From a virus: a stretch of 23,263 nt of DNA. This document shows positions 1 through 5,278 of this stretch, piece by piece. The translations under genes and the position numbers were made by a program. The stretch's first letter is position 1. The number at the start of each line of letters is the position of its first letter. The notes beneath the pieces are model-generated. The model was not told the origin of the DNA and did not search any database. It saw nothing but the letters and a program-made list of their open reading frames with translations. The DNA lies in IMG/VR virus record IMGVR_UViG_3300040751_002840, positions 1 to 23,263 of that record, one strand, 5' to 3'.

Positions 1-124
1 CCCTGATCTCTCGGTGAAGGCTTGCATGGGCGGCCTGCACGCACGCAGCCGCTCTCGGTCGTTCGGTGTCAATGGCGTGCGGGTCTGCCGCGAACCATGT
101 CAGTAGTGCTGCCAGCCAACGCAT
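1..124 (-). CDS. Hypothetical secreted or membrane protein, 5' part only
   Basis: An open frame starts with ATG at 124 directly after the TAG of the preceding gene (TAGATG) and runs off the left edge. A GGAG seven bases upstream is a good ribosome binding site. The visible part is about 41 residues, beginning MRWLAALLTWFAADP, a short hydrophobic N-terminus that could be a signal or anchor. The rest is Arg/Ala rich and I do not recognise it. It continues the run of small proteins with hydrophobic N-termini that surrounds the cysteine peptidase, so it may belong to the same cassette. The start and coding phase are well supported; the function is unknown. Confidence 0.6.
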   Translation of the reverse strand, partial: MRWLAALLTWFAADPHAIDTERPRAAACVQAAHASLHREIR

Positions 125-376
125 CTAAAGGCTCCGCGAGTGGTCGAGCATCTCAAAGCCGTCCTGACCCACGCAGGTCTGGTATTGCTGCTCAATCTCT
201 GGTGGTGCTGGTTCCAGAAATACCATCGCCCGCAAGCCCCAGCGGGCAGCAGTCGACAGGAAACGCAGGAAGGGCCGCTCTGCTCTCGTGCCTGTCTCGT
301 TCGCCACGAGCGAGCCGAGTGCAAACGCTAAGAGGGCGACCACGCCAAAGACTTTGAGTCGTTCCAGTTTTCTCAT
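125..376 (-). CDS. Small single-pass membrane protein (83 aa)
   Basis: This 83-residue protein starts at an ATG that overlaps the TGA of the peptidase gene (ATGA), so the two are probably translationally coupled. Residues 8-25 (KVFGVVALLAFALGSLVA) form one hydrophobic segment after a basic N-terminus: a signal anchor or uncleaved signal. The remainder is soluble-looking, with a single Cys, and ends in a charged tail. I recognise no domain. Sitting directly after a membrane-anchored protease suggests a joint role, perhaps as an accessory, inhibitor or holin/spanin-like factor; that is inference from position and topology only. Confidence 0.7.
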   Translation of the reverse strand: MRKLERLKVFGVVALLAFALGSLVANETGTRAERPFLRFLSTAARWGLRAMVFLEPAPPEIEQQYQTCVGQDGFEMLDHSRSL

Positions 377-1452
377 CGTTCCATTCCAAGCCAGTTATCG
401 TGGCTGATGTCTCGCCACTTAAATTCCACTTCGGCGATTGCCCACGAATCGCCTTGAGCCAGTATTCGCTCGACGGTTTCACGCTCTGCCCAGAACGTGC
501 CATCAGGTTGATCGTCGGGCCACTTTCCACCGTCGACGTAGTTGCCCCATGAGTTGATAATGAGGGCACCGTCGCGGGGGTCACTGCCTCCGCCGTTTTT
601 CTTGAACCGGATTCCGGCAAGGCACATCTGGTGCATCCAAGTGCCGCTCGCCTTACAGAAGCCGTCCTCGTCGCGTGTCTTGGTGAAGCCCTGACTGCTT
701 GCGATGGTCACGGGGTAGCCCGAGGTGATCGCTGCGACGAGCTCCTCCCAAGTCCTGACGTTGACGACGTGCTTGCACGGCGTCTCTGTTGCCACGCGGT
801 CAAGGCGTCCGTTGTCATCTCGTCCACCGCAGCCATACGCTCCCCACTGCTTTGCCCGGTCGCGTGAGTAGTCGCGGAGGTCGTGCTGCTTGTATTCGCG
901 GCGGTAAATTACGCCCCAATCTCTGAGCCACTTTGCGGCAGAGTAGCCGGTCGAGCCATCAGACCAACCGCCGACAGGTCGCTCACCGCTGCCGTCTTTG
1001 CCTCGGGCCTCGACGCGACTTCCGCCGTACAGTGCTTCGGTGCTCGGGAACGTCGGGCACTCGTCACGCTCGCCTAGTTGCCACTCAACAGCCTCGGCAC
1101 AGTAGACGGCATGAGCAGCACCCCACGAGACGCAGTCACCGATCCCCTGCCGTTGCGGTGCAAACGGTTTCCCGTAACGCTCGCGGCTGGCGGCATCCAT
1201 CGCCCGGTAGAGAAACGTGTCGACCTCTTCGGCCTTCTGCATCGCATCAGGTGCGGCATCGGCGAAAAATCGCACGTCGAGCGATTCAAGGAACTCAGCC
1301 GCTCCAACCGGGTCTGGTTGGTACCCAAACTGGTCGGAGGCGGCACCCCACCCCCCCCCTTTTTTTTCGTGGCCGTTCCAGAGAGCGAGGCCATAGAGCG
1401 TGATGAGAACGGTGGCGAGTCCGATTCGCCAACCAGGTCTACCGGATGACAC
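373..1452 (-). CDS. Papain-family (C1-like) cysteine peptidase with N-terminal membrane anchor
   Basis: Papain-like proteases hydrolyse peptide bonds with a Cys/His/Asn triad and an oxyanion Gln. With the start chosen here (359 aa) all four are visible in the right order: Q102 and C107 in QGIGDCVSWG, H274 in MHQMCLAG, and N300 in LIINSWG. Residues 8-25 form a hydrophobic segment, so the enzyme is probably tethered to or exported across the inner membrane. I chose GTG at 1452 because it overlaps the stop of the upstream gene and has GAGAGGG nine bases upstream; an in-frame ATG at 1605 would bury 55 codons inside the neighbouring gene. No clear inhibitory propeptide is seen. Near the N-terminus the coding strand carries A8 followed by G9 (residues about 30-34). 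The gene lies among small anchored proteins. Family assignment is confident; a role in lysis or envelope entry is inference. Confidence 0.85.
   Translation of the reverse strand: MSSGRPGWRIGLATVLITLYGLALWNGHEKKGGGWGAASDQFGYQPDPVGAAEFLESLDVRFFADAAPDAMQKAEEVDTFLYRAMDAASRERYGKPFAPQRQGIGDCVSWGAAHAVYCAEAVEWQLGERDECPTFPSTEALYGGSRVEARGKDGSGERPVGGWSDGSTGYSAAKWLRDWGVIYRREYKQHDLRDYSRDRAKQWGAYGCGGRDDNGRLDRVATETPCKHVVNVRTWEELVAAITSGYPVTIASSQGFTKTRDEDGFCKASGTWMHQMCLAGIRFKKNGGGSDPRDGALIINSWGNYVDGGKWPDDQPDGTFWAERETVERILAQGDSWAIAEVEFKWRDISHDNWLGMER
1351..1367 (-). repeat. A8-G9 homopolymer run inside the peptidase gene
   Basis: On the coding (minus) strand eight A residues are followed directly by nine G residues, encoding a KKGGG stretch just after the membrane segment. 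The reading frame is intact through it. Runs of this kind are prone to polymerase slippage and can support transcriptional or translational frameshifting. Sequencing error in run length is also possible. Confidence 0.8.
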
Positions 1453-1885
1453 GGGTGGCGGCCCTCTCGATTTCGCGGTAGGCGGCAATCCATCTGGCAA
1501 GCTGCTCAGGCCCGACAGGCCCGCCAGCGTTGCCGAGCTTCCTGTCAAGGTATTCGCCCACTCGCCTGGCAAGCTCTGGATGAACCTGCCCGAGGCTGCG
1601 GCCATCGCAGCGAAACAGCCGGGCCTGTGTCCGCAGGTGGTCGAGGGCCAGCCCGGTCGTCAGCACCGGCTCGGCCTGCATCTGGTCAAACTCGATGCAG
1701 TCGGCCAGCTCACCGGCGAGGGCCGCGACAATGGCGGCATCGTCGGCGGCAGTCTCACCGATGAACGCACCGGCAAGGTCGAGCTCGCCCGGTGGTGGCG
1801 TCGGTGTTGGCGTCGGCTGGCGGTCGCCTGACAACAGCAACCACGCCGCGAGGATCGACAGCAGCACGACCATACGCAGCCTCAT
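1439..1885 (-). CDS. Membrane-anchored protein with Pro/Thr linker (148 aa)
   Basis: The start ATG overlaps the TGA of the upstream gene (ATGA), and the end overlaps the GTG start of the peptidase. After a basic MRLR start, residues 5-19 form a hydrophobic segment, followed by a PTPTPTPPP linker and then a mainly helical domain of roughly 110 residues with regular Leu/Ala spacing and a few Cys. No lipobox Cys follows the hydrophobic stretch, so it looks like an anchor or a cleaved signal rather than a lipoprotein. I recognise no family. Its topology (anchor, extended linker, external domain) and its coupling to the protease gene suggest a partner acting in the periplasm, possibly spanin-like. 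That is inference. Confidence 0.75.
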   Translation of the reverse strand: MRLRMVVLLSILAAWLLLSGDRQPTPTPTPPPGELDLAGAFIGETAADDAAIVAALAGELADCIEFDQMQAEPVLTTGLALDHLRTQARLFRCDGRSLGQVHPELARRVGEYLDRKLGNAGGPVGPEQLARWIAAYREIERAATRVIR

Positions 1886-2130
1886 TCCTGGTCACTCCCT
1901 GCGGACAGTGCAAGCGTCAGAACATCGCAGGCGGCAGCCTGATCCTCGTCAAGGTGGTTGGTGTGCATTAGCCGAGTCCGCACCGTTTGCAGTGATGACA
2001 CGGCGTCGAGGTAGCTGGCAGGCTTTGGCCGCGTGTCGAGCCCTTCAAGGCTCGGCAGCAGTCCCGCCTTCTTGTTGGTCGGCCAGAGGGCAACAGCAGC
2101 GGCAGCAACCGCGAGCAACCAGGTCATCAT
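1882..2130 (-). CDS. Small N-terminally anchored protein (82 aa)
   Basis: Both ends overlap neighbours through ATGA junctions, strong evidence of a translated, coupled gene. It begins with a hydrophobic stretch (MMTWLLAVAAAAVALW), then a lysine pair and a soluble tail of about 60 residues ending in acidic residues. This is one transmembrane segment with the tail on one side. No family is recognised. Size and position before the anchored protein and the protease would suit a holin-like or regulatory membrane protein, but a single-span protein with a long tail is not a typical holin. Confidence 0.7.
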   Translation of the reverse strand: MMTWLLAVAAAAVALWPTNKKAGLLPSLEGLDTRPKPASYLDAVSSLQTVRTRLMHTNHLDEDQAAACDVLTLALSAGSDQE

Positions 2131-2501
2131 TCGTCAGCTTTCCTCACTAGGGGCAGAAGGGCATCAACCGCACCGGCAGCAGCCGTGCGGATCAGTGAAC
2201 GGAGGGTCGGCTTGATGAGCCACCACACTGGCCGAAGCCCGAGCGGCACGACAAGATCAGCGAACTCGTCAAACAACGTCGCGGCCAGGTCGGCCACGAT
2301 CTGCTTCTTCTGGTCGCCTGCCAGCTCCAGTTCGTCAACGGCAGCAATCGCCAACCGCATAGCAGCGACGATCAACTCGGCGAGCTCGGCAATCGTCAGC
2401 CCGTCGCTGACCTGACGCCGAACCTGCTCGATGTAGGCGGCTACCTTGTCGTGAAGGTTCAACTTCTGGCTGGCGATGTTGAGCGGGTAACTGCTAATCA
2501 T
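2127..2501 (-). CDS. Hypothetical helical phage protein (124 aa)
   Basis: I use ATG at 2501 because GGAG lies nine bases upstream; a TTG two codons earlier would sit only three bases from the same GGAG. The protein looks all-helical, with an acidic middle (residues about 40-80) and a C-terminal half containing VWWLIKPTLRSLIRTAAAGA, which could be an amphipathic or membrane-associated helix. It overlaps the preceding gene by eight bases and couples to the following one through ATGA. I believe similar uncharacterised proteins occur in other phages, but I cannot name a family. It could mark the boundary between the replication genes and the membrane-protein cassette. Confidence 0.65.
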   Translation of the reverse strand: MISSYPLNIASQKLNLHDKVAAYIEQVRRQVSDGLTIAELAELIVAAMRLAIAAVDELELAGDQKKQIVADLAATLFDEFADLVVPLGLRPVWWLIKPTLRSLIRTAAAGAVDALLPLVRKADE

Positions 2502-2736
2502 CGGCAATATCTCCGAGCAGCTCGTCTTGGATAGTCTGGTAGGCGATGTGCCATAGCAGACGCATGGTCGACCGGGCCTTTTTCTTATTGCTTCGGAACG
2601 GCCCGAAAAGCTCGTGCTTGCGTATTACTCCACCGCCCCCGGCAAGTATCAGCTCGTAGCTCTTGCCGTCCGTTTGCAGAATGACCGTGGCAATCGGGTC
2701 ATTCATCTCATAGGTATCTTCAGGCTCGTCAGCCAT
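2494..2736 (-). CDS. Hypothetical protein (80 aa)
   Basis: A small acidic protein with a basic KKK patch in the middle. Its start codon lies inside the end of the RusA gene, with GAGG six bases upstream, and its end overlaps the next gene. Residues about 15-45 look like a beta hairpin around GGGG, followed by a helical region. There is no signal sequence or recognisable domain. Co-transcription with the resolvase makes a DNA-metabolism accessory role possible, but nothing in the sequence shows it. Confidence 0.65.
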   Translation of the reverse strand: MADEPEDTYEMNDPIATVILQTDGKSYELILAGGGGVIRKHELFGPFRSNKKKARSTMRLLWHIAYQTIQDELLGDIADD

Positions 2737-3322
2737 AATCAGCCTCAGCGTCGAATATATCTCTGTAGTTTATCATTCGACGCTCCTGAACTGACGGCCT
2801 GCGGTTTACATCGCGGGCTTCACGCTCGGCGACAGTCCACTGGCGGCTTATCGTGTTTCGACGTTTCTCAATCACGTCGGGGGTCGGCTCGATGTCACAG
2901 ATGGTGATATATGCTCCCGCCTCTTCGCCGGGCTTTGCCCATCGTCGACGTACTGTCAACTCGACGACCTGCGAATCATCAGCCCAAGCGATCTGGTTCA
3001 AAGCGTCCTCAATGCCTTTTGCGAGGTTGGTGGCATCGCCCCGCGAATAGGGGAAGGCCGGAGCATCTGGACGCACGACCCCTACCCCCCCCCTGTTTTT
3101 GATATGGCTTTTTGGCCGTTGAAATACTGCCTCGATCCCGAGCCAGACCGGCCCCTCGCGAAGCGGCAGCCCGCTGGCACGAGCAGCGGCCTCAACCGCT
3201 CGCCGGTATTGAACGATTCTGGAGGCGTAGTAGACGTGCCCGCTCCTAGTAACCCGTGGCCGCGATTGCGGCACGGGATCGCCGGGAACGACGAACTCGC
3301 TTTGATATGGGTCGGCATCCAT
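2729..3322 (-). CDS. rusA: RusA-like Holliday junction resolvase
   Basis: RusA enzymes are small metal-dependent dimers that cut Holliday junctions formed during phage recombination and replication. The family core is recognisable: an N-terminal beta strand with GDPVPQSRPRV (residues 14-24), then GDATNLAKGIEDALN (95-109) and ADDSQVVEL (114-122). In E. coli RusA the motif DLDN supplies two catalytic Asp; here the first is D96 but the second position is Thr98, while the downstream Lys102 and Asp115/Asp116 are kept. The protein is longer than classical RusA (197 versus about 120 aa) because of a basic C-terminal tail after residue 140. The coding strand contains a G9 run (3085-3093). It lies in the same leftward operon as RecT and the clamp. 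Family assignment is secure; activity is uncertain because of the Thr. Confidence 0.88.
   Translation of the reverse strand: MDADPYQSEFVVPGDPVPQSRPRVTRSGHVYYASRIVQYRRAVEAAARASGLPLREGPVWLGIEAVFQRPKSHIKNRGGVGVVRPDAPAFPYSRGDATNLAKGIEDALNQIAWADDSQVVELTVRRRWAKPGEEAGAYITICDIEPTPDVIEKRRNTISRQWTVAEREARDVNRRPSVQERRMINYRDIFDAEADYG
3085..3093 (-). repeat. G9 homopolymer run inside the RusA-like gene
   Basis: Nine consecutive G residues on the coding strand, in frame, encode part of RGGVGV just upstream of the catalytic GDATN motif. This is the second G9 run in the leftward operon. It is a potential slippage site. Confidence 0.75.
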
Positions 3323-3828: not shown

Positions 3829-4181
3829 TCCACCTCGCTTTCCTCGTCTGAATCATCAAACTCAATAGGTGGCACATATTCATTCCAAAGGGCCACAGTA
3901 ACGCCTCCTCCGGGGCGGTGGTGCATGGCCTGAAGTATCCCGAGGTCTAAAAGCTCAACGAGCTTCTTCTTGACGTTGACTCCTCCGCAAATTTCGGCCT
4001 TGTCAAAGTCAATGAATATATTGAGGCCTTGTGCGGCCATGCCGTCATTAGGATGCGGCTCTACATTAGCCCGGGCAAAATGTATTTCTTCGTATATAAA
4101 AAAGAGCAAGCCGTGCAATCCTTTTTTGGTTAGTTCTCGGTTGAGCTTTTCGCCAAAAGAAGGCATAAAGAATTCTTGCAT
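3825..4181 (-). CDS. Hypothetical protein with acidic tail (118 aa)
   Basis: The start ATG is fused to the clamp gene's stop in a TGATG junction, with a G-rich ribosome binding site (GGGGGTGG) shortly upstream; a TTG one codon earlier is less likely. The protein has an alpha/beta look, with a hydrophobic segment LHGLLFFIYEEIHF (about 22-35) too short and charged to be a membrane span, and a strongly acidic C-terminus (DDSDEESEVE). Base composition is more AT-rich than the neighbours, which may mean a separate origin. No family is recognised. Placement directly after a sliding clamp suggests a replication accessory role, by position only. Confidence 0.65.
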   Translation of the reverse strand: MQEFFMPSFGEKLNRELTKKGLHGLLFFIYEEIHFARANVEPHPNDGMAAQGLNIFIDFDKAEICGGVNVKKKLVELLDLGILQAMHHRPGGGVTVALWNEYVPPIEFDDSDEESEVE

Positions 4182-5278
4182 CAATCCACCCCCATCGGCA
4201 TGACAACGCCTGTTGAATCCTCGGTGCGGAATACCAGAGCAGAGCTCGCGTCGACCGCTTCCACCTCGACCGGCTCGACCGCATCGACGCGGCGAAGGAA
4301 TGCCACGCAGTAGCTCGGGTCAACTTGGATCGTCACCTCGTCGCCAGCCTCAATCGGCTCTAACTCGACGCGGGCATTCCCGGCTTCGCTCGATGTTGCC
4401 TCGACCACGATCACCTGCCCTAGCGTCAGCGTGACGGCCTTGGTCGTCTCGCTGGTGCAGATGCTCGCCTGCCGGATGGCTTCGCAGAGCCTGTCGGCCC
4501 TGACAGTCGTCGGCGTTGCCCGGCCCTCGGTCGGGATGACCTTTTGCCACGCAGGGAACTTGCCATCGACCGTCCGAGCGTAGATTTTGCTCGCTGGGCC
4601 GCCAGCACTGAGGCTGCACAGCACCTCGGCACCGCTCCGCTCAATCTGCACCTCGCCCTCGTCGTCCAACTGCGAGGCCAGATGAGCCACTAACTGAGCA
4701 GATCGCTCAGTGAGCAAAACCGAGCAATCGTCGACGGCCTGGTCGATCTCGATCCGGTGCAGGTGCAGGCGGCGGCCATCGGTCGCCACAAGATGCACCA
4801 CGCCGTCGATGACCTGGATCAGCACCGAGGCCAGAGCGTACCGGGCAGAGTCGCGGTCGCAGGCGTCGATAACAGCCGCGATTCCACGAGCCAACTGGTC
4901 AGCCGGGATGCGGGCCACTGGCGACCACTCCGCCGGTGCCATTTCGGGCCATTCCTCCGGCGACCTCGTAGGAAGCCTCCAGACGCCCCTAGAAGCCCGT
5001 ATGGTCGCCTGCCCGTCCTCGGGCTCAATCACCACCTGTTCACCCGTACAGGCCCGTGCTAGGGCGTCCAGGCGAGCAAACGGCAGGAGGAGCGTGTCCC
5101 CGCCGTAGATAATCGGCACCTCAAGGCGAATCTCGCCATCGGTGGCCTCCAGCCGCCCGGGAGCCAGGCTGACGCAAGTCAGCACCTCGCGTATCGCTCG
5201 CCTCGGCACCACGCGGCCCGCAAGCGAAAGCGTCTGGATCAGATCAGTCCTTTGAACAAAATCACAAACCACCGTCAT
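4181..5278 (-). CDS. dnaN: DNA polymerase III beta subunit-like sliding clamp
   Basis: Beta clamps are ring-shaped dimers that tether DNA polymerase and other enzymes to DNA. At 365 aa this has the normal full length. The hallmark stretch RYALASVLIQVIDG followed by LVATDGRRLHLH (about residues 145-175) is clear, as are the domain-three features and a C-terminus reading VVMPMGVD, equivalent to the MPM-x-L end that lines the protein-binding pocket. A perfect AGGAGG precedes the ATG. It lies between a 65-aa gene downstream of the initiator and an unknown acidic-tailed protein. No polymerase gene is visible here, so the clamp probably recruits the host polymerase or other clamp-binding proteins. 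Divergence from a typical host clamp suggests an old phage-adapted copy. I am confident of the family. Confidence 0.9.
   Translation of the reverse strand: MTVVCDFVQRTDLIQTLSLAGRVVPRRAIREVLTCVSLAPGRLEATDGEIRLEVPIIYGGDTLLLPFARLDALARACTGEQVVIEPEDGQATIRASRGVWRLPTRSPEEWPEMAPAEWSPVARIPADQLARGIAAVIDACDRDSARYALASVLIQVIDGVVHLVATDGRRLHLHRIEIDQAVDDCSVLLTERSAQLVAHLASQLDDEGEVQIERSGAEVLCSLSAGGPASKIYARTVDGKFPAWQKVIPTEGRATPTTVRADRLCEAIRQASICTSETTKAVTLTLGQVIVVEATSSEAGNARVELEPIEAGDEVTIQVDPSYCVAFLRRVDAVEPVEVEAVDASSALVFRTEDSTGVVMPMGVD

Follow-up and report, generated by a model that had tools for sequence, protein, structure and literature searches.

Tailed-phage lysis is understood as the work of a holin, a peptidoglycan hydrolase and a spanin. 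The window analysed here, one IMG/VR record of 23,263 bases (23.3 kb) and a fragment of a virus genome, encodes a membrane-anchored protease in a cassette of small membrane proteins, and the question arose of what such a protease does for a phage.

Gene content of the cassette

The cassette comprises five overlapping genes on the minus strand (125-2501), neighbours sharing 4 to 14 bases. This confirmed an earlier note on this DNA, which had described a papain-type protease with a membrane anchor in a tightly coupled series of small genes. The first gene, c3 (2127-2501, 124 aa), marks the slot in all variants and encodes a protein with internal hydrophobic segments only. It is followed by c28 (1882-2130, 82 aa), which is conserved within the window lineage and also in some other lineages, and by c2 (1439-1885, 148 aa), which encodes an anchored, all-helical protein directly upstream of c0. 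The protease itself, c0 (373-1452, 359 aa), is a membrane-anchored, papain-type (C1-like) cysteine protease whose GTG start lies inside the end of c2; its own end is overlapped by c1 (125-376, 83 aa), whose product combines an N-terminal hydrophobic segment with an amphipathic stretch. N-terminal anchors, previously ascribed to most of the proteins, were found in c1, c0, c2 and c28 but not in c3. A longer open reading frame (373-1605) merely extends the protease to a start placed too far upstream; the 359-aa start is preferred because it agrees with the alignment and places the nucleophile at C107.

The cassette is flanked by a gene for a RusA-type Holliday junction resolvase (2729-3322, minus strand; PF05866, E 3.5e-21). 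Positions 4181-5278 encode a phage DNA polymerase III sliding clamp with all three Pfam domains, which is conserved in relatives (c12). A tract of the form A5-8, G8-9, T(G/A)GGG recurs in the window lineage on the coding strand of two genes, those for the protease and for RusA (window 1346-1367 and 3079-3093; G001 25314 and 26100; G002 29859, 31585 and 32349), and is almost missing from other lineages; its run of Gs is preceded by A AAA AAA, which looks like a -1 slippery site.

Residues, fold and topology of the protease

Q102 (1147-1149), C107 (1132-1134), H274 (631-633) and N300 (553-555; all minus strand) were invariant in an alignment of 22 c0 relatives; the catalytic C107 had been numbered correctly in the earlier note. 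The AlphaFold2 model of c0 had a mean pLDDT of 82, and a Foldseek search of the PDB gave xylellain as the best match (E 3.2e-10), with cathepsins next. With the catalytic Gln, Cys, His and Asn in this order and a papain fold, c0 fulfils two of three requirements for C1 membership, but the C1 family profile did not recognise it (Pfam gave no family at E 1 or below), and a profile of the 22 sequences had its best sequence match in cathepsin L at E 0.17. By profile, c0 is C1-like and not a C1 member. The single cassette proteins gave no significant match in PHROGs and likewise no assignment in Pfam. While c0 has the papain fold and the Q-C-H-N residues in common with xylellain (3OIS) and other C1 papain peptidases, it differs from them by an identity of only ~16%, the missing Pfam C1 match, the membrane anchor and the location in a phage cassette.

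The N-terminal membrane helix seen in the model comprises residues 7-28 (1369-1434, minus strand). A hydrophobic segment recurs at the N-terminus of c0 relatives, its sequence being little conserved. Arginines precede the helix, which suggests that the N-terminus is inside and the enzyme domain outside, a topology inferred from the model. The SAR endolysins P1 Lyz and phage 21 R likewise carry an N-terminal membrane helix on a lytic enzyme; their hallmark is that the weak helix leaves the membrane and the enzyme is thereby activated. Unlike these, c0 is a papain-type protease instead of a lysozyme, and only the presence of the helix was demonstrated.

Distribution and conservation

Relatives of c0 are encoded in at least 582 viral contigs, and none was found in INPHARED by tblastn. 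A single-sequence scan of 84,980 species genomes found nothing, but an alignment-based scan found nine loci, including four planctomycete MAGs and Blastopirellula marina DSM 3645; in this genome set, two distant homologues lie in Mucilaginibacter chromosomes, outside a phage setting. The protease was present in 11 of 392 sampled Planctomycetota genomes, a frequency consistent with occasional prophages. Synteny was counted at 142 loci, with the loci having enough flank as denominators: c2 adjoins c0 in 128/134 loci, c3 accompanies it in 91/102 and c1 is located downstream in 107/122. The gene order c3-(c28)-c2-c0-c1 recurs in long relatives. Given this co-occurrence and the number of contigs with a relative, the cassette is not a chance arrangement.

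c2 is also present in planctomycete chromosomes; a known papain-inhibitor fold was considered for it and rejected, as no PDB match had an E below 1. The cassette is often followed by c71 or c55, the latter a three-helix protein of the Transgly_assoc type (PF04226), which lies within the cassette in about half of the loci (46/95). This type is presumably listed among the putative holins in TCDB. Elsewhere c55 is a holin candidate; within the window the choice is limited to c1, c28 and c3.

Genomic position

Classical lysis genes are found in lambdoid phages with a RusA-type gene upstream and the terminase downstream, and also after tail genes. The cassette occupies either of these slots: it lies between RusA and terminase, or it closes the tail operon next to the integrase. 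By position it thus qualifies as a lysis module. Records of the window lineage have dnaN first, then RusA and the cassette, with the terminase next in G001; in G003, G004, G005, G007, G008, G010 and G014 the cassette closes the late operon beside the integrase. Within one terminase class, c0 was encoded upstream of the terminase in 16/16 contigs with at least 4 kb of upstream sequence. The cassette is on the same strand as the late genes. The lysis cassette of lambda type (holin S, endolysin R, spanins Rz/Rz1) sits on the terminase side of the nin/Q region and shares with the present one the place between a RusA-type gene and the terminase, the overlapping genes for small membrane proteins and the single enzyme. 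Here, however, the enzyme is a protease, and the window has no recognised holin, no lipoprotein spanin and no peptidoglycan hydrolase. Many contigs (of L190-L266) start within ~60 bases of c121, the gene before the terminase, which suggests defined genome ends.

Hosts and their cell walls

A prophage-like region of B. marina DSM 3645 (L086, 6018-20721) contains the cassette, then a gene for an exported thioredoxin-like protein, then terminase, portal and capsid genes, and it also encodes an RNA-polymerase alpha-CTD-like protein. Since cassette and phage genes lie within B. marina, the host of this prophage is a planctomycete. The planctomycete context assumed before therefore holds for relatives (the B. 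marina prophage and several MAGs), but for the window itself a planctomycete host is only inferred.

Cysteine-rich YTV proteins are reported from planctomycete cell-wall preparations, and peptidoglycan synthesis genes are reported to be missing in most Planctomycetales (PMC8567305, PMC10632474); the walls reportedly withstand boiling SDS (PMC3422733). YTV wall proteins were encoded in 11/11 c0-positive planctomycete genomes versus 37/392 in the sample (hypergeometric test, 1e-12). The penicillin-binding transpeptidase domain PF00905 was missing in 4/4 hosts of close homologues and present in 377/392 genomes (1e-6); within YTV-positive genomes this association had a Fisher p of 0.005. These tests are not independent, because the host genomes are related; phylogeny was ignored and kinship confounds them. 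A protease module fits such hosts, since their walls are made of cysteine-rich proteins and the closest ones are without the standard wall-crosslinking enzymes. However, peptidoglycan and sensitivity to lysozyme are reported for those planctomycete sacculi that have been tested (PMC4432640), and a protease alone might therefore not suffice.

Search for peptidoglycan hydrolases and head proteases

No peptidoglycan hydrolase was found in the window, which bears out the earlier note. Since the window is only a 23.3-kb fragment, the absence was tested in relatives. G004 and G005 carry 127-base terminal repeats and were therefore taken as complete circular genomes. They encode portal, terminase, capsid with head protease, integrase and a signal-peptide trypsin, and a Pfam search of their proteins revealed no peptidoglycan hydrolase. 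Twelve further long records (genes of at least 110 aa) had none among the 25 families listed, and Amidase_2, Phage_lysozyme, SLT and M23 were absent from 22-29 viral records, positive controls being included. A canonical endolysin elsewhere in the genome, which would have refuted the earlier proposal, was thus not found in two complete and twelve long relatives. G004 and G005 represent one lineage, the window lineage is without a proven complete genome, and a hydrolase without Pfam resemblance could escape detection. No holin was identified in the window, and c1, c2, c28 and c3 of the window have no lipobox as expected for a spanin.

A protease used only in capsid maturation would also have spoken against the proposal. 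This was not supported: relatives have a separate head maturation protease and an S78 prohead protease, the cassette lies outside the head genes, and c0 fails the criteria for a prohead protease, which are a gene alongside those for portal and capsid and an enzyme of S78/S14/U9 type. Besides the C1 protease, G003, G004 and G005 carry the signal-peptide trypsin, c80 (L142:14352-15134 and L148:18623-19405, minus strand), close to the terminase; the trypsin match of G433 equals that of c80 in strength.

Replacement by other proteases in the same slot

At 80 loci of the c50 class, c0 was found in 45, the sequence was too short in 28, and c0 was missing from the expected place in seven, two of which carry it elsewhere in the same record. 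In G424/G425 and G426, c3 is kept; after it come genes for small membrane proteins, one for a 289-aa product and one for an exported trypsin-like protease (PF13365, E 7e-20). The close relatives G423 and G426 share their flanks, with the C1 cassette in G423 and the trypsin cassette in G426. The trypsin arrangement is the same in contigs that reach far enough (13 contigs, loci L437-L449); at L369:826-3980 it consists of c3, small genes, a cysteine-protease-like gene, the exported trypsin and two TM proteins. The 289-aa companion is called cysteine-protease-like only from its Q/C/H motifs; homology to c0 was not supported (probability 4.6%).

A third type was found in G427, where c3 is kept and followed by an exported 190-aa protein (L363:2212-2784, minus strand) and an exported thioredoxin-like protein. 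The 190-aa protein has invariant C48, C51, H128 and N146-148; it had no match in Pfam and only short, doubtful PDB matches to designed proteins. Its gene is present in 48 viral contigs (loci L450-L497), with the thioredoxin-like gene beside it in nearly all that are long enough, but most of these pairs lie among head-tail genes and not in the c3 slot. A lipid desaturase-type gene (L363:597-1124, minus strand; PF10520, E 2e-38) adjoins the exported cysteine-protease-like gene. None of the loci of these two types carries c0. In the records inspected, c2 and c1 were missing wherever c0 was missing while c3 was retained; this joint absence makes it probable that c2 and c1 are partners of c0. For G422 and G441, which are fragments, the slot content was not assigned.

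Discussion

We consider it probable that the cassette is a lysis module of Planctomycetota phages, in which an envelope protease takes the place of the endolysin and attacks a protein-rich envelope; lysis is inferred. The basis is genomic: the genes, residues, fold, synteny, slots, prophage, the absence of recognisable hydrolases in the relatives examined and the protease replacement were observed. Gene position and the replacement by unrelated proteases, which had not been foreseen, favour lysis. The earlier idea that the protease may replace or assist an endolysin is supported by position, absent hydrolases and slot replacement, but lysis and substrate remain inferences. Points against lysis are that there is no experiment, that the window has neither holin nor lipoprotein spanin, that the Mucilaginibacter homologues are not in phages and that the third type lies mostly among head-tail genes.

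Two rivals stand out, a peptidoglycan endopeptidase with a papain fold and a protease serving lysogenic conversion. CHAP and NlpC/P60 enzymes cut the peptide cross-links of peptidoglycan, and c0, with its papain-like fold and its location in the same slot, could do so in an otherwise conventional lysis; lysozyme-sensitive sacculi of planctomycetes (PMC4432640) would provide the substrate. We regard this as unlikely, since the nearest folds are xylellain and cathepsins and not NlpC/P60 or CHAP, the full C1 set of Q-C-H-N is kept, a wall-binding domain is missing, the hosts of close homologues are without the PBP transpeptidase and trypsin-like enzymes occupy the same slot. To our knowledge, trypsin folds are not known as peptidoglycan hydrolases. 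A cassette expressed in lysogens could instead alter the cell surface, either by digesting receptors and thus excluding superinfection or by cleaving host envelope proteins. These phages are temperate and have integrases, conversion genes are often located next to the integrase, as the cassette is in some lineages, and several of its proteins are anchored; but its near-universal retention with partners across hundreds of contigs argues for an essential late function, it occupies two separate lysis-type positions on the late-gene strand, and the complete genomes have no other lysis enzyme, which leaves conversion a rather unlikely reading.

The other two explanations carry less weight. If c0 only assisted a conventional, unrecognised endolysin, for instance as a spanin-like disrupter of the outer membrane or of wall proteins, this would agree with the several steps needed to lyse diderm cells, and the relatives' genomes do contain conserved small genes of unknown function; however, Pfam gave no candidate hydrolase in the two complete genomes, and we think this very unlikely. 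Maturation of virion proteins (capsid, scaffold or tail) is the least credible: phages use proteases in head maturation and the cassette adjoins structural genes in several relatives, but the head proteases mentioned above are separate, c0 has a membrane anchor and in most lineages the cassette is not beside capsid genes. Chronic release without lysis, reported for a deep-sea planctomycete phage (PMC10945688), was also considered as a possibility.

A lysis module built on c0 might work as follows, the topology and the late expression being inferred, as are the substrate, the trigger and the lysis. c3, c28, c2, c0 and c1 would be expressed late from one operon; the N-terminal helix of c0 would insert into the inner membrane and expose the papain domain to the periplasm. 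Its near-constant neighbour c2 may be an inhibitor, chaperone or adaptor. At the lysis trigger, c0 would cleave cysteine-rich proteins of the wall or envelope. The membranes would be permeabilised or coupled by c1 and c3 or by a holin-like neighbour, and the cell would burst. In the variants, the exported thioredoxin beside the cysteine protease could act as a reductant for disulfides in the wall or in the protease itself. The c3-marked slot is filled by an anchored C1-like protease, by a trypsin-like protease with a cysteine-protease-like companion, or by an exported cysteine-protease-like protein with thioredoxin. Because these fillings differ, the conserved function of the slot could be proteolysis with disulfide reduction and not peptidoglycan hydrolysis; whether Planctomycetota phages achieve lysis by digesting a protein wall rich in disulfides is a question on which we find ourselves evenly divided.

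No protease lysis cassette for planctomycete phages was found in the literature searched, subscription papers and preprints being outside its scope. The pseudomurein endoisopeptidases PeiW and PeiP of methanogen viruses are a comparable case of phage peptidases acting in the lysis of a host whose wall is non-standard, but they cut an isopeptide bond in a peptidoglycan-like polymer, belong to another family and have no such anchored cassette (PMC4592898). If our reading is true, a lysis module built on a protease would be a different solution to lysis, matched to hosts whose wall composition has been under dispute for decades. It would explain the missing endolysin annotation in abundant phages and could provide enzymes for opening planctomycete cells, and the wall dispute would become testable from the phage side, by asking which polymer must be cut for phage release.
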